Assembly (NCBI GenBank): GCA_958510825.1
Contig: OY294049.1
Span: 8,804,001 to 8,868,000, forward strand
DNA: 64,000 bases
From: Brachypterus glaber
Lineage: Eukaryota > Arthropoda > Insecta > Coleoptera > Kateretidae
Direction: 5' to 3'
This document shows positions 3,352 through 60,453 of this stretch, in pieces. The number at the start of each line of letters is the position of its first letter. Within the stretch, counting starts at the first letter, position 1. Under the pieces are notes generated by a model. It ran no database searches and was not told the origin of the DNA. It saw only the letters and a list, made by a program, of their open reading frames with translations. Both the position numbers and the translations under genes were made by a program.

Positions 3352-3641
3352 TACATATATTTGTAAACATGTAACTAAAAATAAATTTACCCAATCGTAC
3401 AAGTGTATTATGATCAGTTGCAAATCTCGGCTCACGCCCCCATTTGCAATATCAGCTAACATAACTAAATGTTATAACAAATAAAATATAGTAAGGACAG
3501 AAATTTTTAATTTTAAACAAAATTATAAAAATATTAATTTATTATTCCATCAATCTATTTTCTAATCATCGTACAGAGTGATATTGGTAGACTGACAGTT
3601 TCGGGCTGCTGGCCCTCTTAATCAGCGTGCAGAGTTGACTC

Positions 3642-3686
3642 TTGGTACTGAAGAGGGCCAGCAGCCCGAAACTGTCAGTCTACCAA
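3642..3686 (+). ncRNA. Type I hammerhead ribozyme, copy 1 of element 1
   Basis: All core elements are visible. Stem I is TTGGTA (3642-3647) pairing with TACCAA (3681-3686). The core is CTGAAGA (3648-3654). Stem II is GGGC/GCCC around the loop CAGCA (3655-3667). GAAA is at 3668-3671. Stem III is minimal: the last A of GAAA plus CT pair with AGT around a three-base loop. The cleavage triplet is GTC, so self-cleavage is expected after 3680. Every conserved core base is intact. Activity is inferred, not shown. Confidence 0.88.
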
Positions 3687-3995
3687 TATCACTCTGTACG
3701 ATGATTAGAAAATAGATTGATGGAATAATAAATTAATATTTTTATAATTTTGTTTAAAATTAAAAATTTCTGTCCTTACTAATTTTACGTCTAACCACCC
3801 GTTAGTGGTACTATGTGCTTGAGACACACAAGTCTTCAACTTGCTACCATTCAAAGTCTCCAGATAAGGAGAGGTATGAGTAGTTGTCTACATCTAGAAA
3901 TAGATGGCGCACAAGTCTACATCAATCTAATGGCTATATTCCTTTTGCGAGTAAAGTCTAAAAACGTTTTCTTAATCAGCGTGCAGAGTTGACTC

Positions 3996-4040
3996 TTGGT
4001 ACTGAAGAGGGCCAGCAGCCCGAAACTGTCAGTCTACCAA
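3996..4040 (+). ncRNA. Type I hammerhead ribozyme, copy 2 of element 1
   Basis: This copy is identical to the one 354 bp upstream: TTGGTA 3996-4001, CTGAAGA 4002-4008, a GGGC/GCCC stem II to 4021, GAAA 4022-4025, GTC ending at 4034, and TACCAA 4035-4040. Cleavage at both copies would release a 354-nt RNA with ends suited to circularisation, as described for retrozymes. Confidence 0.88.
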
Positions 4041-4285
4041 TATCACTCTGTACGATGATTAGAAAATAGATTGATGGAATAATAAATAAAATATAAATTA
4101 AATTATTAAAATTAGTATTCATTTTATTTTTTTCTAGTCGCATATGACAATTTTATTGAGCAAAATAGGAAAACACTTGTTGTTGCAATTAGTTGCCATA
4201 ATACATATAATAAAAATGTGTCTATTTCAAATAAAATGAAAAGGTCAATAAAATGTTAAAAATAACTAATTACATTATATTATAT

Positions 4286-9447: not shown

Positions 9448-9601
9448 ATGGCGGCGTGTAAATAAACTTAAGATTTTGCTGCTTAAAAAGTTGAAATATA
9501 AACAAAATAATACTATTTTTTAAGTATATTTTCACAAAAGTGTGTTATTTAGTGGCTGTGTAGAATAAAATATTACGTCTAAAGTGCAAATATTATTAAT
9601 A

Positions 9602-10240
9602 ATGGTTGTTAGCAGACAGTTGCAAGTGGATGTAGAAAGCATCTTACAAGATGCATTCAAAAAACCCGAATTTGTGGAGCTTATATGTAAGTCAATAGCA
9701 AAACACGTGTGTGAAAATATAAATAAAGAAATGGAGAAAATGAAGAAAAGTATGGAAGAAATAATAGCAGAAAACAAACTACTGAAAGACCAGGTCAATA
9801 AACTCGAATCTGAAATCATAAAAAAAACCGATAATATTGAACAGTGTACAAGAAGAAAAAACTTAAGGATTTTCGGTATACCAGAGACAAAAAACGAGAA
9901 CACTGAAAATACAATTATAGATTTCTTTTATACTAATTTAAATATAAAACTTGAACCAAAGGATATCGATAGATGTCACCGTGTGGGTAAATTGGAAAAT
10001 AATAGAAACCGAGGTATTTTTGTTAGTTTTGAAACCTATAAAACTAAATGTAAAATATACGAAAATAAAAAATGTTTAAAAGGAAAAAGACAAACAATAA
10101 CTGAAGACCTTACCAAGAACAAATTAGCACTATACCAGGAAGCTATTTTAAAATATGGTATTAAAAATACTTGGACGAAGAATGGTCAAATCTTCGTAGC
10201 CACCAATGGAAGAGCAAAAATATACGATGAAAGTCAATAA
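9602..10240 (+). CDS. LINE ORF1 protein (coiled coil plus RNA-binding-type domain)
   Basis: This is the ORF1-type protein of the LINE, expected to bind the element RNA and chaperone retrotransposition. The first ATG is at 9602 (AATAATGG context). An in-frame GTG lies 18 bases upstream, but ATG is the natural start, giving 212 residues. Residues about 35-90 are charged and heptad-like (INKEMEKMKKSMEEI, then KLLKDQVNKLESEI), predicting a coiled coil. The block after it (RRKNLRIFGIPE, later IDRCHRVGK and GIFVSFETYKTK) resembles the RRM-like and C-terminal parts of ORF1 proteins with this layout. No CCHC knuckle is present. The frame is intact. The stop lies about 180 bp before the ORF2 start region. 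Confidence 0.8.
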   Translation: MVVSRQLQVDVESILQDAFKKPEFVELICKSIAKHVCENINKEMEKMKKSMEEIIAENKLLKDQVNKLESEIIKKTDNIEQCTRRKNLRIFGIPETKNENTENTIIDFFYTNLNIKLEPKDIDRCHRVGKLENNRNRGIFVSFETYKTKCKIYENKKCLKGKRQTITEDLTKNKLALYQEAILKYGIKNTWTKNGQIFVATNGRAKIYDESQ

Positions 10241-10419
10241 AAATATTTATTTTTTTTTATTCGTTGTTGATTTAGTTTTTTCTCTAATCTAATTTCTCTA
10301 AATTAACCCTTATTAACAAATACTCACTTTTTTATTTTTTTTTTTATTTCCAGTTTTGGGTAAAAGTAATATAACTGATTTTTTATTTTTATTTTGGAGG
10401 CAGCAAACTTTGGCTTATA

Positions 10420-13395
10420 TTGGACGAAATCGATCTAGTTTCAGATGAGGACTGCAATGGAGTTTTTACTAAACAAATTGTTAACAATGAAGAGTGTAAA
10501 TTATTTTTAGGAAAAACAAAAGGTATTAATATTTTAGCTAAAAACATCCGTAGTATAAATAAAAATTTTGAGGAATTAATTGTGCTTTTAGAATCGTTAG
10601 ATTTAAATAATATAGATATTTTAATTTTGTCAGAGTGCTGGCAACAGTTAGACGTTGACAGGTTTAATATACCAAATTTCCAATTATATTATAATTATGC
10701 AAACTTTAATCAAAATGATGGGCTCATTATATATATTAACAATAAACTAATAACTAATACCAAACATTTTAAAATAAATAATGTAACCTACTCAAGAACA
10801 CTTTTCAAATACGATACGGTTAATTTTGGAATAACTAGTTTATATAGATCACCATCAATAAACGACTCTCAGTTTATAGAAGATTTTAAAAATTTTATAC
10901 CACGTCATTGTAACCAAATGTTAGAGCTTATTATCGGTGATATAAACGTTGATATTTTGGATAAACAAAATAAAGATGTAAATAATTATATGAATTTTCT
11001 CAGTTCTCTAGGTTATGTTTCGTATATAAATAGACCTACTAGAATACTTCAAAAAAAATCATGTATTGATCATATATTTATCAAAGGGGCTACAACAAAG
11101 CACATTAAAAATATTTCCTCGGCAGTTTATTGTAGCACTGTTACAGATCATAGAACTACTCTAGTAAAAATAGAAACAACTAAAACAACTAACACAACCA
11201 AACAAGAAAATTCTTTTACTAAAACAGAAATTGATTATAATAAAATAAAAAGTCTATTAGAAGTAGAGAACTGGGAAAGTGTGTATAATGATGATAATGA
11301 TATTGACACGATAACTGAAAATTTTATAAATAAATTAAAAAATTGCATACAGAAGTCAACAAAAACGGAACAAAAAAAAATTAAATATAAAAAAATACAA
11401 CCTTGGATAACAACAGGTCTTATAAAGTCAATAAATACGAGAAATAACTTAAAAAGGGAATGGGGTAAAAATAGAAACAATATCGAATTGGAACAAAGAT
11501 ACAAAACACATAGAAATCTTGTCACAACACTATTAAATAAAACTAAATCAGACTATTTTTCGAGTAAAGTAAATAAGGCAGAAAAAGATTCAAAAAAACT
11601 GTGGGATATAATTCGGGAGGTGGAAAATAAAAATAAAAAAGAAAATAAAAAAATTGTAATACAAAATGAAAACGGCGTTATGTTGGAAAATGATCAAGAG
11701 ACGGCTGATGCAATGAATGAATATTATGCAAAAATCGGTAAAAAAATGGCAGATAAAGTATCTACCAACAATCTTAACGTAAAATATAAGAATAAAAATA
11801 CAAATCAATCACTGTTTTTAGAAAAAGTTACAAGAAGTGAAATTATATTAAACATTTCCGAGTTAAAAAATAATAGCGCGCCTGGTAAAGATGGAATAAG
11901 CACCAAAGTTTTAAAACACATTAATCAACTCATTGCATCGCCTTTGTCTTACATCATAAATCGCATATTTAAAAATGGTGTTGTTCCGAAAGCATTTAAA
12001 GAAAGCGTAATTGTGCCCATTCATAAAGGAGAGAGTCGCCTAGAAATGTCAAACTATCGACCAATATCATTGATATCAAATGTAGCAAAAGTATTTGAGA
12101 AGTGTTTGAAAAGTAGAATATTAAACTTTCTAGAGAAATTTGAATTACTATCGTCAAACCAATATGGATTTAGAAATAACAAAAATTCTGAGCTAGCAAT
12201 ATATAATTTAGTAACTAATATATATAAATCCCTAGAAAATAGTGACAAATGCCTAGCCATATTTTTAGACTTAGCCAAGGCTTTTGATACTGTGTCGCAC
12301 AAAATTTTATTACAAAGAGCTGAAAAAATTGGTATAAGAGGTACTCCCCTAGATTTATTAAAAAGTTATTTAGCTGAAAGACGGCAATTTGTAAAAATAA
12401 ATAATAGTCTAAGTAAGTCTCAGTTAATTGAAACTGGTGTTCCACAAGGCACAGTGCTAGGTCCAATATTATTTTTAATTTACATTAACGATTTAACACA
12501 AATACAAAACATAAACTGCACAATAATATCGTACGCAGATGATACTGTTTTAATTTTTACAGCAAAAACATGGATTAAGGTCAAGAAAATGGCGACGATT
12601 GGACTTAGCACTGTAAATTGTTGGTTAGATAACAGTCTACTTACACTAAACTACAAAAAAACCAAATTTATAACTTTTTCTATCACAAATGCCACAAACA
12701 GTTATATTGACACAATTAAAATACATACATCCAACTGTTTACAAAACAATATGATGTGTTGTAATTGCACAAAAGAAATTTGTTCTACAGAAAATATCAA
12801 ATATCTTGGCATTGTGATAGATGAAAATTTAAAATGGAAAAAACATATTGAAGTATTAAATTCTAAAGTTCGTAAATACATATACCTCTTTTACCAATTA
12901 AAGAAATACTTAAACAAAAATATATTAAAAACAGTTTACAAGGCCTTGGTTGAGTCTATACTGCAGTATGGTATTATTGCATGGGGCGGTTTGTACGATG
13001 ATGCTGCAAAATCACTTAATGTTACCCAAAACACAATTTTAAAAATAATTTATAATAAAAATAAAATATATTCAACTAAGGATTTATACAATGAAGCGGA
13101 ATTATTTAATGTTAGACTCTTATATGCAAAAAAATCTATAATCTTTATCCAAAATGAGAACATACTTTTTAAACACATAAACCATTCCTATATGACAAGA
13201 AATAAAGCCAAAAATAATTTAACAACACAAAAATGTAAAAAAACCCACACACAAAAGTTTGTCGACTATCTTGGTCCAAAATTGCACAATTTACTTCCTG
13301 AAAATTTAAAGTCAATAGATAAAATTCACCTCTTTAAAAAAAAATTAAATACATTTATTTTTGAAAACAAAGAAATTATTATTAAACTATTTTGA
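10420..13395 (+). CDS. LINE ORF2: endonuclease and reverse transcriptase
   Basis: This is an apparently intact 991-residue polyprotein. The N-terminal part is an APE-type endonuclease: NIRSINKNFEEL near residue 42, ILSECW near 70, SLYRSP, IIGDINVDI near 170, and SCIDHIF then TDHRTT. The RT follows: NYRPISLISNVAKVFEK near 545, FLDLAKAFDTVSH near 620, GVPQGTVLGPILFLIYIND near 675, catalytic SYADDTV near 705, and KYLGIVIDENLKW near 795. A Cys-rich stretch (MMCCNCTKEIC) precedes that last motif. Together these carry out target-primed reverse transcription. The frame opens at 10375 with no ATG; the quoted start is a TTG, and the first Met codon lies about 165 residues in, inside the endonuclease. 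Initiation is therefore unexplained. Confidence 0.88.
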   Translation: MDEIDLVSDEDCNGVFTKQIVNNEECKLFLGKTKGINILAKNIRSINKNFEELIVLLESLDLNNIDILILSECWQQLDVDRFNIPNFQLYYNYANFNQNDGLIIYINNKLITNTKHFKINNVTYSRTLFKYDTVNFGITSLYRSPSINDSQFIEDFKNFIPRHCNQMLELIIGDINVDILDKQNKDVNNYMNFLSSLGYVSYINRPTRILQKKSCIDHIFIKGATTKHIKNISSAVYCSTVTDHRTTLVKIETTKTTNTTKQENSFTKTEIDYNKIKSLLEVENWESVYNDDNDIDTITENFINKLKNCIQKSTKTEQKKIKYKKIQPWITTGLIKSINTRNNLKREWGKNRNNIELEQRYKTHRNLVTTLLNKTKSDYFSSKVNKAEKDSKKLWDIIREVENKNKKENKKIVIQNENGVMLENDQETADAMNEYYAKIGKKMADKVSTNNLNVKYKNKNTNQSLFLEKVTRSEIILNISELKNNSAPGKDGISTKVLKHINQLIASPLSYIINRIFKNGVVPKAFKESVIVPIHKGESRLEMSNYRPISLISNVAKVFEKCLKSRILNFLEKFELLSSNQYGFRNNKNSELAIYNLVTNIYKSLENSDKCLAIFLDLAKAFDTVSHKILLQRAEKIGIRGTPLDLLKSYLAERRQFVKINNSLSKSQLIETGVPQGTVLGPILFLIYINDLTQIQNINCTIISYADDTVLIFTAKTWIKVKKMATIGLSTVNCWLDNSLLTLNYKKTKFITFSITNATNSYIDTIKIHTSNCLQNNMMCCNCTKEICSTENIKYLGIVIDENLKWKKHIEVLNSKVRKYIYLFYQLKKYLNKNILKTVYKALVESILQYGIIAWGGLYDDAAKSLNVTQNTILKIIYNKNKIYSTKDLYNEAELFNVRLLYAKKSIIFIQNENILFKHINHSYMTRNKAKNNLTTQKCKKTHTQKFVDYLGPKLHNLLPENLKSIDKIHLFKKKLNTFIFENKEIIIKLF

Positions 13396-20902: not shown

Positions 20903-21475
20903 ATGTCTGCTCTTGATCATGAGGAAAACAGAAAAAAAGTTTGTGCTCCATGTGGCAAAAAAATTATTTTTGGTAAAAAAGGGGTTAACTATTTCAAAAT
21001 TACGCAAAATTTTGATAATTTATTAAAATTACATGTAAATAGAGATTTCGACTTATTAGACAAAAGATACCCAACATCCATTTGTGGAACATGTCAAGTG
21101 GTGTTAAGAGAATACAATCGTGGTATTACACTTCGATCATTACCTGTAATGCCCGATTATAACACTTTGATAAAAAGAAGTGACATAATAATGAAGTCGA
21201 CCTGTTGTTGTTTTATATGTATACTTGGACGGAATACATGCACTTTAAAACAGACAATCAAAACAGAAGATAAGAATTTAAGTGAAGAAATATGCAAGAA
21301 GTGTTTTAACACAATTGGTAAGGGCAAAAGGCATTCTTGCTCTATCATAAATGCTCAAAAAAATGCAAGCAAAATTGTTGAAAGTCTTCCAGAAAAACAA
21401 CAGGAAAAAATACCTTTCGAATACCAGTTAAATGCTCTTCCAACTAAGTTACCATGGAAGTCAAAAATTTTATAA
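20903..21475 (+). CDS. Cysteine-rich zinc-binding protein of the TIR transposon
   Basis: 190 residues run from an ATG in good context (AACATGTC). Cys pairs are arranged as in paired zinc-binding modules: CAPC near residue 13, ICGTC near 60, a CCCFIC cluster near 98, EICKKC near 130, and HSC near 147. The first module, with about 45 residues between its pairs and a YPTSIC motif, resembles a ZAD-type or treble-clef fold. The tail (SLPEKQQEKIPF) is short and the frame ends before any catalytic domain. Similar Cys-rich N-termini occur in larger proteins of metazoan DNA transposons whose C-termini carry a WSEQAGE motif like the one at 25272-25616. That link is from memory and is tentative. Likely role: DNA binding. 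Confidence 0.6.
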   Translation: MSALDHEENRKKVCAPCGKKIIFGKKGVNYFKITQNFDNLLKLHVNRDFDLLDKRYPTSICGTCQVVLREYNRGITLRSLPVMPDYNTLIKRSDIIMKSTCCCFICILGRNTCTLKQTIKTEDKNLSEEICKKCFNTIGKGKRHSCSIINAQKNASKIVESLPEKQQEKIPFEYQLNALPTKLPWKSKIL

Positions 21476-33272: not shown

Positions 33273-33647
33273 GGTAGACTAACATCCCTACTCTTAATTA
33301 GTCTACTTATCCCTATTCTATAACATCTATACTCTACAACAACCCTACTCCGTAACATCCCTACTCCATAACATCTCTACTCAATAATAACTGTACCCCG
33401 CACTATATGGACGCGATTACCCGCTTGACATAAATCAAAAAAATATTTGTCATGGTAAGTCATTGTCAAATATGTATTTTCCTATTAATTACTCATTTAA
33501 TAATACAAGTTGAGAATGCGGGCAAACAGACTATTAAAATAACATATATGCGATTATTTTAAAATATTACGTAAAGACCAGCACTTTCTAGGAAAAATAT
33601 AAAATTATATAGAAGAGAGTTCCTTGTTCTGCAAACCACTCATTTAT

Positions 33648-33681
<34 letters not shown>
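33648..33681. repeat. (AAT)n microsatellite, 3' tail of the LINE fragment
   Basis: This is a pure ATA-phase run. On the minus strand it is the ATT-repeat tail of the LINE that reads from 35063 down. Confidence 0.85.
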
Positions 33682-33977
33682 TTTATTAGTAGATGATGAA
33701 ATTTACATAAAAATTTACCTACAAATGCCTAAGCCGGGCTTGTGTGCATATTATAGGTAAAAACATACATTTATTACTTAAATTATTATATTACATTTAT
33801 CACTTAATTAATATATTAAAGATAATATTAATTTTGAAATTAATTCTGAGATTTTGAGATAATTCTGAGATAGGACGGTAGATGAACGAGACACTAATTT
33901 AGGGGTAAGGTATAAATAATTAAATAATTACCATTAGAAGCATAGACAAAGAAAGATTTTTTTTTTTTCTTCTGAAA

Positions 33978-35063
33978 TTAGAAGGGAAGCTGTAAAGTTA
34001 TTGTACCATTTAATAGGTTCGCTTTAATTTTAGTTTTAAAAGGAGTAAACGCAATAATTTCCCTAATATTGACAGGCAATTGATTAAATAGTTTAGGCGC
34101 TGTGTATAATACATATCTTTGCGTCAAACCTTTGTTAAAACGTGGTACTGGGATTGGATCGGTGTGTGAAAACCTTGTTATTCGCGGAAGATAACTGGGG
34201 ATACGGTGATTAAATGCCCATAATAAGCAACGGTAAATGTAGTGATTTTTTATGTTAAATACGTTGGTTTCTATGTATATTTGTTTCGTGCTAAATAATC
34301 TATCTTTTAAAAGAGAAACTTTTAATATAGAATTAAGCGCGGCTTCTAATGGCTGTACTGAATTTTTAAGTAGAGCCCCCCATACAGTTATGCAATAAGT
34401 GACTATTGACTCCACTAGAGATTTGTAAACGAGTAAAATTTCGTTTTTGTTTATAATTTCACGAAGAATATAAAACTTTGGAATAAGTTGCCGAACTTTT
34501 TTAGTGACATAGTTTACATGTTCATTCCAGCGCAAGTGTTGGTCAACCATTAATCCCAAATATTTAATTTTATCAGTTTTATCAATTGTTGGACATTGAC
34601 AAATTACAAAATTTAAACAATTTTCTTTGTGAATTTTTAACGAATTAAAACCTGGTTGACCACCACTATACGCTGAAAATGAGATAAATTTAGTTTTACT
34701 TTTGTTAAGAGATAGTTTACTTAGGTTTAACCAACTTTGCTTTACCAAAAGTCCAGCTTCACCTTTTTCCTTGACACCCTCCCAAGTTGTATCCGAAAAT
34801 ACAACGGATGTATCGTCCGCAAATGACACCATATGCCCATCAAAATTTATAAGTCTAGAAAAGGAGTTGAGGTATATAAGAAATAAAATTGGGCCTAAGA
34901 CAGTGCCTTGCGGTACACCCATTGTTATTTCGCAGTAGGAACTATAATTGTTGCCAATTCTTACCCGTTGTAGCCTATGTAATAAATAACTTCTTATTAA
35001 TGTGTAAGCCACCCCTCTAATCCCAACATCATATAATCTTTTAAGCAAAACTTTATGAGACAC
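33978..35063 (-). pseudogene. 5'-truncated LINE: reverse transcriptase C-terminal half
   Basis: 361 residues begin within the RT core (VSHKVLLKRLYDVGIRG follows the usual FDT motif). They contain GVPQGTVLGPILFLIYL, catalytic SFADDTSVVF, KSKTKFISFS and IKYLGLMVDQHLRWNEH, with a Cys-containing loop (CLNFVICQC) just before the last motif. It is the same clade as the ORF2 at 10420. The frame is open, but endonuclease and RT motifs before the first Asp are missing. The apparent start is a GTG, and a stop lies two codons upstream at the junction with the MITE (35064). The copy is recent enough to be open but cannot move by itself. Confidence 0.82.
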
Positions 35064-35269
35064 TGGCTAATTGAGTGCATATAGTGTGGAGTAGAGTTTT
35101 TGGGGAGTAGAGATGTTATGGAGTAGGGATGTTATGGAGTAGGGATGTTACGGAGTAGGGTTGTTATAAAGTAGGGAAATTAAGAGTAGATATGTTAGTC
35201 ACCTAATGATAGCGACTTCGCCATAATTATAAATTCCAGATAAGAATTGCACTTTTAGGATAAAATTTT

Positions 35270-37315: not shown

Positions 37316-37624
37316 CAGAAATAAGTTACAAAATGTTAAGGGTCGATTCTAGGTTCAAAAGTATGAAAAAAAAATCCTATAAGGGTTGGTCCGGAAATAA
37401 GCCCTAAGGAAGTTACGGCATTCCAAAGAGTACATCTGAAGAGTAGTTTTTATTTAATATCTCTAGAATCCTATTAACGTGCAAAAATTCGTTAATGTGG
37501 TTTATAGGGTTCCAGAGATATTAAATAAAAACTACTTTTCAGATTTTCCCTTAGGGCTCATTTCCGGACCAACCTTTATAGAAACTTGTTTTCATATTTT
37601 TTGATCTATTTCTGAATCACCCTG
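37316..37624. mobile_element. 309-bp MITE, TA target duplication
   Basis: The ends CAGAGTGATACAGAAATA and (inverted) CAGGGTGATTCAGAAATA have TA outside both (37314-37315 and 37625-37626). The palindrome continues inside (AGTAGTTTTTATTTAATATC against its inverse). It is a mariner-type non-autonomous element by its rim. Confidence 0.8.
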
Positions 37625-41680: not shown

Positions 41681-42218
41681 GGCAGACTAACATCTCTACT
41701 CTAAATTTCTCTACTCCCTAACATCCCTACTTCATAACATCCCTACTCCACAACAACTCTACTCCGTAACATATCTACTCCATAACATCTCTACTCTGTA
41801 ACAACTCTACTCCACACTATATGCACTTTATTAGCCACTTAATAATAAATGAGCAGTTCAAAGAACAAAGAATCTTCTTCTAGATTATTTAATTTTTTTC
41901 CTAGAAAACGTTTATCTTTAAATGTAAATCTAGAACAATCATAAATGAATTATTCTAAAAGCAACAATGACCGCGTACTCTTAACATGCACTAATATGTA
42001 AGTAGTTAATAAACTGAATTCATTTTTGACAGTGACAAATATTCTTTTGAGTTAAGACAAGTGGCTAATCGAGTGTCTATAGTGTGGAGTAGAGTTGTTA
42101 CGGAGTAGAGATGTTATAGAGTAGAGATGTTACGGAGTAGAGTTGTTGTGGAGTAGGGATGTTATGGAGTAGGGATGTTAGGGAGTAGAGAAATTTAGAG
42201 TAGAGATGTTAGTCTGCC
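41681..42218. mobile_element. 538-bp MITE with minisatellite terminal repeats (type copy)
   Basis: The ends are GGCAGACTAACATCTC and its exact inverse. Each end is an array of eight or so 16-17-bp units, (C)ATAACATCTCTACTCYG on the left and its inverse on the right, about 140 bp per side, followed by TCCACACTATATGCACTTTA / its inverse. The interior is about 230 bp and non-coding. No target duplication is evident. It is complete and the best reference copy of this family. Confidence 0.8.
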
Positions 42219-49775: not shown

Positions 49776-50498
49776 TGTAACTTATACAAACTCAAATTTA
49801 TTATTCCAACAAAACATAAATTATAAACTAATTGAAATAATTCATCAAATATTACAGAATAACTATCAACTATTAAATTAATAAATATATCTTATCAATC
49901 ATCATGAAACCGAAAGGAACCGAAAATGGTCACCAGCTCTTAGACTATTAGCAGAAACAAGGTAAAAGTAGATAACAAATCAGTCGATATTTCTGTGAAC
50001 GGTTATCTAGAAATCGTCTATACTGCAGCTCCTTCTACTGCTAAGCTAAGCAGGGTAGTATTATAGATGCCATAAGGGCAATTGTTGATCATGTGACGAC
50101 CAGCATTCATTGTATAATATAAACTATGTATAACCCTGTAAGGCATCATGTAACCATATGGACACGACCTAATTAAGTTAATCAAAGTATGTTTTTATAA
50201 ACGTTAAACATACTGTTTTAGTATGCAGTAGTAAAGTTTTAGTATAGTCACTTAACCCTAGGATGCCTGCCCTAAAAAATATACACATTTACATACCCTG
50301 GGCCTGGGAGGCCCGAATATAAAAATTAACGGTTTAATGGAGAGCCTCTAGCACAAGCATATTGCTTATTTGTGGCTCTCCATGACAAAGTATGTATGAA
50401 AAATAATAATAAATAAATAGGTATCATATAAAATTAAACTATTATATTTATATATAAAACATTTTACTATTCCTTAAAACGACTTTTGTTTGATTAAC

Positions 50499-50581
50499 GC
50501 AGTCGTCCCTCCGAAGTGACTGATCGATTTCGTGCTTTTTAGCACTCTTCAGAGCCACATATCGGTAGTAGGGACAACTAC
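50499..50581 (-). ncRNA. Hammerhead ribozyme in the inverted arm, sense to Patj
   Basis: This is the exact inverse of the copy at 50929-51011, with full core (TCTTCAG at 50546-50552 is CTGAAGA on the minus strand). Both arms of stem I lie inside the inverted segment, so this copy is complete. Cleavage is expected between 50522 and 50521. It is transcribed in functional orientation if the Patj intron is. Confidence 0.82.
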
Positions 50582-50928
50582 GAAAATCAAATCCTTTCCA
50601 TATATCTCTATATAGAGTTTAAAAATCGTTGTAAGGAAAAGCAAAAACAGCTAGCGACATCTACTGCTAAAAGCAGAGACTAGATAAACCTATCGACAGT
50701 CCAAAAAAGGATTCAATTGGCGGCAATGTCCACCGTGGCATTGATTAATCTGCCCCCTATCGACAGCGTGCAATAGGTTCTTGAAACCAATAACTGCTTC
50801 CTTTTTTGGACTGTCGATAGGTTTATCTAGTCTCTGCTTTTAGCAGTAGATGTCGCTAGCTGTTTTTGCTTTTCCTTACAACGATTTTTAAACTCTATAT
50901 AGAGATATATGGAAAGGATTTGATTTTC

Positions 50929-51011
50929 GTAGTTGTCCCTACTACCGATATGTGGCTCTGAAGAGTGCTAAAAAGCACGAAATCGATCAGTCACTTCGGA
51001 GGGACGACTGC
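50929..51011 (+). ncRNA. Type I hammerhead ribozyme, copy 1 of element 2
   Basis: The core is CTGAAGA (50958-50964), stem II GTGC/GCAC around TAAAAA (50965-50978), then GAAA (50979-50982). Stem III is minimal (ATCGAT) and the cleavage triplet is ATC, ending at 50988. Proximal stem I is GTGGCT (50952-50957) with AGTCAC (50989-50994), one G-T pair. Distal stem I is GTAGTTGTCCCT (50929-50940) with AGGGACGACTGC (51000-51011). The asymmetric internal loop between them is where the usual tertiary contact to the stem II loop would form. Confidence 0.86.
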
Positions 51012-51364
51012 GTTAATCAAACAAAAGTCGTTTTAAGGAATAGTAAAATGTTTTATATAGATTTTTTAAATTTGTAAATATCAAACAATTTAATTTAGTT
51101 TATTAATTCAGATACCACTGTAAAAGGTGACCTCCTAGCGTTTAGGATTCAATTGGCGGCAATGTCCACCGTGGCATTGATTAATCTGCCCCCTATCGAC
51201 AGCGTGCAATAGGTTCTTGAAACCAATAACTGCTTCCTTTTTTGGACTGTCGATAGGTTTATCTAGTCTCTGCTTTTAGCAGTAGATGTCGCTAGCTGTT
51301 TTTGCTTTTCCTTACAACGATTTTTAAACTCTATATAGAGATATATGGAAAGGATTTGATTTTC

Positions 51365-51447
51365 GTAGTTGTCCCTACTACCGATATGTGGCTCTGAAGA
51401 GTGCTAAAAAGCACGAAATCGATCAGTCACTTCGGAGGGACGACTGC
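51365..51447 (+). ncRNA. Type I hammerhead ribozyme, copy 2 of element 2
   Basis: Identical to the copy 436 bp upstream: CTGAAGA at 51394-51400, cleavage expected after 51424. Two sense copies would cut out a 436-nt RNA. Confidence 0.86.
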
Positions 51448-51689
51448 GTTAATCAAACAAAAGTCGTTTTAAGGAATAGTAAAATGTTTTATATAGATTT
51501 TTTAAATTTGTAAATATCAAACAATTTAATTTAGTTTATTATATTTATGTTTTAATATATTTCTTTATGTAATAGAAACTCTAACGAAAATGAAACAAAG
51601 CCCTTAAAAATATCTTAATATATGTCTTAAAATAATCAGTAAAAAATACACGAAAAGAATTAAGTCCTTAGAAAAGCAATTATTACAAA

Positions 51690-52090
51690 TGTTGGTACAA
51701 AGTTCATAGCAAATACATTTTTGAAAGTCATTTTACTTTTCTGTCCAATTTTAAGGGGCACAATAAGCATCTTTTCCTATTACACGGTCCTGGTTGTTCG
51801 TCAGATGGTTTAGGAATTTCTATAAGCTTAACCATGCTGTCAAAAACGTACCGTGACAAACATAGATTTTTAGATCTCTTTAGCATATGACGTATTTTAA
51901 ACTACTTTACTAAATCCTTTAAAAAGATCATCCGTCTGTGGATCCAAACTTGGATTTTCCATTAAAAAACAATAAATGCGTTTGAAGCTGCTACATCAAT
52001 CACATTTAGGAAGAACGCCATTGTCCAACGTTTAGTTTGGACTTTTACAAGTGTAAGTAGATAACATATGTCATGTTCAATGGGTTTATA
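51690..52090 (-). pseudogene. piggyBac transposase C-terminal remnant
   Basis: The minus strand reads TLVKVQTKRWTMAFFLNVID then VAASNAFIVF, the segment after the catalytic domain in piggyBac transposases (RW.M..F...D....NAF). After frame breaks, PGPCNRKRCLLC follows, the start of the C-terminal Cys-rich zinc region. Several stops and at least one frameshift lie between. The DDE part is gone. It supports the TTAA and end-repeat diagnosis of the host element. Confidence 0.7.
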
Positions 52091-52873
52091 TTTTTTATAA
52101 ATCTAACTTAAAATGATTTATCAGCGTTTTTAAATTTTTTTGTGTTGAAAAATACATATTTAAGTATATATGTTAATATGGGGTATCAATAGAAAAGAAC
52201 TTTTTATAACACATGGTGTAAAATTAAAATAACAATTTTGCAAAAATTTTATTCCAAATACTTGAATTGAGGCATTCCCAAAAGGATTTTTTAATAAATT
52301 TATTTTTCTGTAAGATACAGCTAATCATTTAACCTGCCGTTCCTCGGAGGCCCGAGGTATGCATCCTAGGGTTAAACATAACATTATATAAAACCCAAAG
52401 CTTCTGCGCAAATTTTAATATGTCTCCTGACAGATGTTTAGAGTGTGGTGCAACATGCGTTGATGCTTTGACGTTGATGATAAATTTAGTACGTGATTAG
52501 GTGAATATTTCAAGGTAAAATAACTTTAAATGTGAATAACTTAGTTAATAAACAATTATTGCGTATGATGTACATATTTGTTTTAGATATATTATGGCCT
52601 TACGATATATAATAATCTGATAATGCCATATGGTCACACCTATAAATACCACTTTTTGTGTAAAACATGTAAAATTTAATGATAGAACTTGATTTAGGTG
52701 ATCATAATTAGTCGCATACCCTGATTGGGAAATTTAAGTCCTTATAAAAGTACTACAGAACCTTACAGGGATAAACTATGATTATATCAAAGAACATAAT
52801 CTTGTTTCTTAAATTGAGGTAAAAGCAAAAACGCCTAACATTAAAATTTCTCCATTAAGAAGAATTGCTATAC

Positions 52874-54731: not shown

Positions 54732-55201
54732 ATACTACTATACTATACTATACTATACTATACTATACTATACTATACTATACTATACTATACTATACTA
54801 TACTATACTATACTATACTATACTATACTATACTATACTATACTATACTATACTATACTATACTATACTATACTATACTATACTATACTATACTATACTA
54901 TACTATACTATACTATACTATACTATACTATACTATACTATACTATACTATACTATACTATACTATACTATACTATACTATACTATACTATACTATACTA
55001 TACTATACTATACTATACTATACTATACTATACTATACTATACTATACTATACTATACTATACTATACTATACTATACTATACTATACTATACTATACTA
55101 TACTATACTATACTATACTATACTATACTATACTATACTATACTATACTATACTATACTATACTATACTATACTATACTATACTATACTATACTATACTA
55201 C
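54732..55201. repeat. (TACTA)n pentanucleotide array, ~94 units
   Basis: About 460 bp show no interruption after a short variant start near 54731-54738. The long open frame that translates as YYTIL repeats is a by-product: a five-base repeat gives a five-residue repeat and no frame-shifting stop. Confidence 0.95.
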
Positions 55202-59763: not shown

Positions 59764-60453
59764 GGGGTAACACACATCTCTACTCACACATCTCTTCTCA
59801 CACATCTCTACTCACACACATCTCTACTCACACACATTTCTACTCACACACATCTCTACTCACACACATCTCTACTCACACACATCTCTACTCATTGTCA
59901 TTAGGGTCGATTGACTTTGACATTTATTTGATTGAAACTAGGATACCATGGAGGAATAAAGCACTAACTATATTAATTTAATTTTTTTTTGTAAATCAGC
60001 TTGTTTGGACTGCACAAAAAATCCTATTACTATTAATAGTAATGAACTTCATAATAAATTTTGTTTGCAATACACAAACTTATAAGCTGAATTACAGAAA
60101 AAATATTAAATTAATTTGGTTTAGTCCTTTGTTTCGCCATGGTATCTTAGTTCTAATTAAATAGATGTCAAAGTTAATTGACTTTAATGACATTGAGTAG
60201 AGTTGTGTGTGAGTAGAGATGTGTTTGAGTAGAGTTGTGTGTGAGTAGAGATGTGTTTGAGTAGAGTTGTGTGTGAGTAGAGATGTGTGTGAGTAGAGAT
60301 GTGTGAGTAGAGATGTGTGTGAGTAGAGATGTTTGTGAGTAAAAATGTGCGTGAGTAGAAATGTGTGTGAGTAAAAATGTGTGTGAGTAGAGATGTGTGT
60401 GAGTAGAGATTTTTGTGAGTAAAAATGTGCGTGAGTAGAGATGTGTGTCACCT
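59764..60453. mobile_element. 690-bp MITE with CACACATCTCTACT minisatellite ends
   Basis: The left end is an array of ACACATCTCTACTCAC units (59770-59893). The right end is the inverse array GAGTAGAGATGTGTGT (60195-60448, about sixteen units). Between them GTCGATTGACTTTGACATTT and TACCATGG pair with inverted partners near 60140-60195. The unit resembles the GAGTAGAGATGTTATG unit of the 41681 family. The open frames over both arrays are repeat by-products. Confidence 0.75.

Follow-up and report, generated by a model that had tools for sequence, protein, structure and literature searches.

A putative retrozyme of Brachypterus glaber with the insertion footprint of Penelope-like elements

In the analysed stretch of 64,000 nucleotides of the Brachypterus glaber genome (the window), we identified a young insertion, termed E2, which we regard, with a probability of roughly 80%, as a non-autonomous animal non-LTR retrozyme, an element of a known kind, mobilised by the machinery of Penelope-like elements (PLEs); cleavage, RNA circle, paired enzyme and driver PLE are the parts of this reading that we infer. 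Judged from its sequence, E2 has the traits of a retrozyme, namely a type I hammerhead in a repeat of 150-450 bp, tandem copies, low GC content, a target-site duplication of more than 4 bp and an RNA predicted to pair with itself. At the level of sequence, a PLE-type footprint with a strict rule of one proximal and one distal end is present in two such putative retrozyme families of one genome, E2 (436-nt unit) and its sister E1 (354-nt unit). A preliminary description of E2 as a self-cleaving hammerhead element is supported by our analysis, but it left the class, animal retrozyme, unnamed, missed the inverted arm and contained no mechanism of mobilisation.

Architecture and hammerhead motif of E2 and E1

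Unit positions are given as u, with u1 as the first base past the cleavage site. The following features belong to the E2 insertion.

50452-51536: E2 insertion, young, 436-nt unit
50440-50451, plus strand: left target-site duplication TATTATATTTAT, directly preceded by AAAC
51537-51548, plus strand: right copy of the duplication TATTATATTTAT, with GTTT after it; 5 nt are shared with the unit
50451-50711, minus strand: left arm, inverted partial unit, from u71 (outer end, proximal site) to u247 (inner end)
50708-51541, plus strand: right arm, 834 nt or 1.9 laps of the 436-nt unit, from u156 (inner end) to u117 (outer end, distal site)
50708-50711: AGGA, 4-nt microhomology at the head-to-head junction of the two arms
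50989-51424, plus strand: one monomer, the predicted self-cleaved 436-nt RNA, from cleavage site to cleavage site
51059, plus strand: proximal reverse-transcription start site of the E2 family, about +71 after cleavage, placed by the outer-end clusters
51102, plus strand: distal reverse-transcription start site of the E2 family, about +114 after cleavage, placed by the outer-end clusters
50940-51010, plus strand: hammerhead motif (Rfam and descriptor), GATC^A cleavage predicted after 50988
51376-51446, plus strand: hammerhead motif (Rfam and descriptor), cleavage predicted after 51424
50500-50570, minus strand: hammerhead motif in the inverted arm (Rfam and descriptor), cleavage predicted after 50522

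The direct copies at 50708-51105 and 51144-51541 are identical in 398/398 positions, which confirms the 436-nt unit with identical tandem copies described before. That description had overlooked, however, that the first copy is inverted and stands head-to-head with the others (50451-50711 against 50799-51059, 261/261 complementary). The duplication, given as 11 bp, is present, but the exact match comprises the 12 bp of TATTATATTTAT, with ATTATATTTAT inside. E2 has a GC content of 36% and contains no open reading frame of at least 120 aa, and thus none with reverse transcriptase and GIY-YIG domains as in an autonomous PLE. When folded as a circle, 67% of the unit is paired (z -6.8), and the antisense strand is low too (z -5.8).

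For identification of hammerhead motifs, we applied Rfam models and a descriptor (CUGANGA, stem II, GAA, stem III, UH, stem I). The Infernal-type check proposed in the preliminary description yielded Hammerhead_HH9 (RF02275) at three sites of E2. The score of 28.4 bits (E 0.006 over the 64-kb window) does not reach the curated cut-off, which is 52 bits; at gathering level, the Rfam scan of the window gave no match. The descriptor found 5 matches in the window, all of them within E1 and E2, and any match at all occurred in 2/100 Markov-simulated windows. A whole-genome search with RF00008 returned 0 matches, but the control genomes were equally silent and this result is no evidence of absence.

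The E2 motif combines CUGAAGA and GAA with a GUGCU/AGCAC stem II and a stem III whose single A-U pair is capped by the palindrome UCGA; AUC precedes the predicted cut, so that the ATC cleavage site proposed earlier is recovered. Also the extended stem I with an asymmetric internal loop is borne out by the minimum-energy fold, where helices of 6, 4 and 13 pairs are separated by a 3x1 loop and a 4-nt bulge, respectively. In this fold, part of the catalytic core is paired and the open core is not drawn. The motif is classified as a type I hammerhead, which is predicted to be self-cleaving. Because stem III has one base pair, cleavage of a single E2 copy may be inefficient; a dimer is described as necessary for cleavage in amphibian retrozymes whose stem III has one pair (PMC7229834). 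In neither family did the ribozyme core turn out to be conserved after insertion, when differences from the window unit were counted. For E2, these amount to 7/1592 in the core and 216/48653 at other bases, the 216 including position 276, where the window unit departs from the majority; for E1, they amount to 6/1124 and 84/28429.

The architecture of E1 in the window is as that of E2.

3479-4095, plus strand: sister element E1, 354-nt unit, duplication AAATAAAATATA, inverted arm at 3489-3619

Its inverted arm is identical in 131/131 positions, with a 4-nt overlap, TCTT, at the junction. An Rfam scan (E up to 1) of a single E1 locus (L032) gave no hammerhead match, and the ribozyme call for E1 therefore relies on the descriptor. 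Part of E1 is scored by Rfam as a miR-196-like hairpin, below cut-off. Both families had been described as unrelated in sequence. This agrees with blastn, which gives no significant match (best E 0.91), but the start regions align better than shuffled sequences: the local alignment of E1 u29-89 with E2 u36-103 scores 47, while Markov shuffles have a mean of 28 and 0/500 score as high. This region contains the proximal site and is possibly a shared recognition element.

Insertions in the genome and their target sites

The assembly of 648 Mb was searched with each unit as query. For E2, 167 matches were obtained from the best 40 scored of 879 candidates, and for E1 183 matches from the best 39 scored of 384 candidates. 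Since only the best-scoring candidates were used, the sample is skewed to young intact copies. From these matches, 68 insertion groups were read; two which end at a locus edge were dropped, leaving 66 uncut insertions (40 E2 and 26 E1, window copies included). The E1 set leaves out at least 14 further E1 insertions among the genome matches.

Two head-to-head arms are found in 58/66 insertions, the outermost arms always minus and then plus, and a few of these carry extra internal breaks or flips. The remaining 8/66 are one-armed. Outer ends fall into two clusters per family, u62-79 and u110-118 in E2 (about 71 and 114) and u48-63 and u93-103 in E1 (about 53 and 98). Both ends lie within these proximal and distal clusters in 56/58 two-armed insertions, L048 and L077 having one end elsewhere. 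The two ends use different sites in 56/56, of which 24 have the proximal site on the left and 32 the distal site. When ends were shuffled among insertions 100,000 times, different sites were reached in 28.6 insertions on average and in 44 at most. The window copies obey this two-site rule as well, E2 with u71 left and u117 right, E1 with u101 left and u53 right. The footprint of priming on both strands at two internal sites downstream of a predicted hammerhead is thus present in both families, whereby "internal" refers to the unit as delimited by the predicted hammerhead cut, and that limit may not be the 3' terminus of the RNA. Arm length is similar for both sites, with a median of 450 nt for proximal and 495 nt for distal arms (49 of each, lengths from 40 to 5016 nt), and the proximal arm is the longer one in 34/56. 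Six inner segment ends of E1 are located at u157-171 (L031, L044, L046, L054, L055 and L057), a pattern that stalled reverse transcription would leave.

A duplication of at least 10 bp, usually 12 or 13 bp, flanks 58/66 insertions, as compared with 13/528 mismatched flank pairs. Read toward the duplication on either strand, AAC stands beside it at 40/116 ends, where about 1.9 are expected (E1 16/44 ends with 0.7 expected, E2 24/72 ends with 1.2 expected). The target consensus is symmetric, AAC|N12|GTT-like, and common to both families, and therefore one machinery probably serves both. Such symmetry is what a dimeric endonuclease would predict. Among 50 simple two-segment insertions, the junction shows an overlap of at least 2 nt in 58% (chance 18%) and of at least 3 nt in 38% (chance 6.4%); 18/50 have 1-11 unaligned nt at the junction instead.

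Mobilisation by a PLE machinery and alternative explanations

E2 resembles the animal non-LTR retrozymes described by Cervera and de la Pena (2020, PMC7229834). Common traits are the type I hammerhead, short tandem repeats of low GC content, duplications of more than 4 bp and a circle predicted to be highly paired, and the one-pair stem III with palindromic tetraloop corresponds to axolotl Amex1 (PMC7229834). With 436 nt, E2 is slightly larger than the 170-400 nt of the RNAs, yet within the 150-450 bp of the repeats reported there. The head-to-head arms, the two start sites and the different-site rule of E1 and E2 were not found described in the available text of that paper. Plant LTR retrozymes share the hammerhead, the circular RNA (predicted for E2) and the non-autonomous state, but they differ by a type III hammerhead, LTRs, a tRNA primer site and a 4-bp duplication (PMC4918200). 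PLEs are discussed as strong candidates for the mobilisation of animal retrozymes (PMC7229834), and elsewhere LINEs or PLEs are proposed (PMC11722881).

In the anole PLE PAc, both DNA strands are cut and extended, and copying begins at two internal sites next to each other (Frangieh, 2024, PMC11167929). It prefers AT-rich ATT targets, and a dimer is predicted (PMC11167929). E1 and E2 have in common with PAc and with bdelloid Penelope elements the tandem and inverted repeats, an upstream hammerhead (predicted in E1 and E2), an AT-rich target, two adjacent internal start sites, an optional tail on one inverted end and, judged by the footprint, the cutting and extension of both strands (PMC11167929, PMC3846280). 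Unlike PLEs, the retrozyme unit has no long open reading frame. The tail on one inverted end of Penelope (PMC3846280) comes nearest to the paired-site rule, of which we found no statement in the accessible text of the open-licence PMC literature. The mutual exclusion of sites is counted here in 56 retrozyme insertions and 12 PLE places, whereas the part of PMC11167929 available to us gives the start sites as the same between strands.

These PLE places come from a resident element. A GIY-YIG search located 31 places in the genome, and one stretch (L081) encodes RVT_1 and GIY-YIG, the pair of domains that marks a PLE. Among the matches listed (120 of 1008), relatives of its protein are found in ladybird, mosquito, fly, ant, tick and coral. 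With the 5' region of L081 as query, 48 matches were obtained from 40 scored of 142 candidates. At 12 places, a minus and a plus arm lie within about 2.3 kb, and in 12/12 the outer ends of the two arms fall one into query 504-519 and one into 543-553; these were taken as single insertions from match coordinates alone. Among the remaining 24 matches, 22 stop in either of the two clusters and 2 continue past them. A hammerhead-like motif was recognised by eye in L081, with U in place of C3 and no Rfam match; its cut would follow query 457, placing the two sites 47-62 and 86-96 nt downstream, close to the spacing in E1 (53 and 98) and E2 (71 and 114). In local alignment, the start region of this PLE resembles those of the retrozymes no more than shuffled sequences do, and the resident PLE may therefore not be the driver. 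Beyond exact distal ends of the PLE, GTT is no more frequent than the control TTG, with 13 pattern matches, 3 of them uninterrupted PLE, versus 10.

The mobilisation of E2 may be envisaged as follows. The repeat would be transcribed and the hammerhead would cut the transcript into 436-nt pieces, which a host ligase would circularise, as inferred from published retrozymes. A paired reverse transcriptase/GIY-YIG endonuclease of a PLE would bind one RNA at about 71 and about 114 nt downstream of the cleavage site and make staggered cuts, about 12 bp apart, in both strands of a symmetric AAC|N12|GTT-like target. The two 3' DNA ends would then act as primers, one at each of the two RNA sites, and the two cDNAs would run round the circle for 0.1 to several laps and stop. 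They would be joined head-to-head, often via 2-5 nt of microhomology, and fill-in would yield the 12-bp duplications. In general terms, retrozymes and PLEs would share an obligate paired priming, in which the 3' ends of a symmetric, 12-bp staggered break are extended on one RNA circle from one proximal and one distal start, never from the same one; we consider this more likely than not, with less confidence than the reading of E2 as a retrozyme mobilised by PLE machinery. If true, hammerhead and two-site module would form a portable signal that gives a small self-cleaving RNA access to a PLE. As to which enzyme mobilises animal retrozymes, the footprint speaks for PLE machinery in two families of one genome, and the two-site rule offers a reason for the puzzling structure of Penelope, with its inverted ends and a tail on one of them.

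Twin priming is a minority outcome in human L1. We consider it unlikely that the retrozyme is moved by a LINE, such as the one with two ORFs at 9584-13395, and that the head-to-head arms are ordinary L1-like twin priming, although LINE frames occur in the window and the 15-bp duplications of an anemone retrozyme have been likened to those of LINEs (PMC4918200). Twin priming does yield 5' inversions with junction microhomology, as seen in E1 and E2, but there the RNA 3' terminus pairs with one of the DNA ends, as it does in a standard insertion, a fixed pair of internal sites was not found mentioned in the available part of the paper, and few 5' inversions occur among trans-mobilised copies (PMC2912911). 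Against it, head-to-head arms are the rule here (58/66), the outer ends lie in two fixed clusters and always in different ones (56/56), the target is symmetric and a resident PLE has the same pairing of ends. Even less probable is that the inverted arm arose by self-priming (snapback) of one cDNA, which was proposed for Penelope palindromes on the basis of inverted junctions (PMC3846280). Snapback has one primed start, and the far end would not reach the other fixed site each time, as observed in 56/56. Moreover, 156/175 variants are confined to a single lap and hence the arms do not generally mirror changes, a count that covers all multiply covered positions. That E2 is a decayed, immobile satellite which merely resembles a hammerhead would fit the tandem organisation and the Rfam score below cut-off, but it is practically discounted by the dispersed near-identical copies, 58/66 with a duplication of their own, and by the paralogous empty sites described below.

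The form of the template is less settled. It was probably circular, and a multimeric linear transcript of a genomic array, with no role of the hammerhead in insertion, is a less probable but serious alternative, the more so as the anole PLE retains insertion in vitro when its hammerhead is mutated (PMC11167929). At unit positions covered at least twice per insertion, we found 175 variants, of which 156 are present in a single lap, 15 in some laps and 4 in all laps. The four all-lap variants, one each in L001, L062, L066 and L074 (that of L001 also in L015), are present in both arms. They support one RNA read repeatedly by both arms, for which one circle would be the simplest form, and argue against a linear multimer. 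The 15 some-lap variants are not predicted by a single unchanged circle, and the same applies to L078, where one variant is shared by the two laps of one arm and missing from the other arm, and to L038_41 (about G000:C4:69220145-69225495), whose 14-lap arm has three variants in irregularly recurring laps. Some-lap variants and this irregular recurrence would fit a linear template, and L038_41 may reflect a mixed template or a later exchange. The E1 insertion L058 carries twelve substitutions in the interval u187 to u334, with ten in its right arm, and they look like a patch from a diverged RNA.

One-armed insertions bear on the same point. Three of the four in E2 start at u434, u4 and u5, the predicted cleavage site, and are 1.3 to 3.2 units long; of these three, L019 has no duplication and L065 one of 6 bp only. 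Their starts would be consistent with run-off at a hammerhead-cut 5' end, as in linear cut RNA, and are a hint of cleavage in life. Inner ends from -10 to +30 of the cut number 12/40 in E1 (4.5 expected) and 9/60 in E2 (5.5 expected).

Host piggyBac relic and other features of the window

E2 is inserted in an older transposon.

50252-52375, minus strand: piggyBac relic, host of E2, with TTAA-CCCTAGGATGC at both ends

To the right of E2, the minus strand carries decayed transposase pieces which we take, by eye, to be of the piggyBac type; Pfam gave no match on four of these pieces. A search with the joined flanks of E2 returned 75 matches from 40 scored of 830 candidates. Among them are 38 main matches outside the window with 80-91% identity, and 33/38, counted by hand, start at or before query 203 and align across the junction (query 220/221) without insert. 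These 33 empty sites are paralogous, not allelic. Together with the TTAA-CCCTAGGATGC relic ends, the uninterrupted sites fit the earlier proposal of a recent insertion into an old piggyBac relic. Inside the relic, at about 50339-50392, a stretch with inverted ends GGAGAGCC/GGCTCTCC is probably a private small insert; query 111-161 is covered by no listed joined-flank match except the window itself.

Several other features were observed in the window. The LINE-like frame pair at 9584-13395 consists of a 218-aa frame and an uninterrupted reverse transcriptase frame of 991 aa. Pfam found no match on the open reading frame at 20903. Three pairs of opposed 16-nt tandem repeats, TGGAGTAGAGATGTTA-like, are located at 33309-35177, 41688-42211 and 59770-60448 and are probably the ends of one DNA-transposon family. 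A near-palindrome of 209 nt at 37375-37583 is scored by Rfam as MIR2670 below cut-off and is more likely a MITE. At 54736-55200, TACTA is repeated 93 times with 100% matches.
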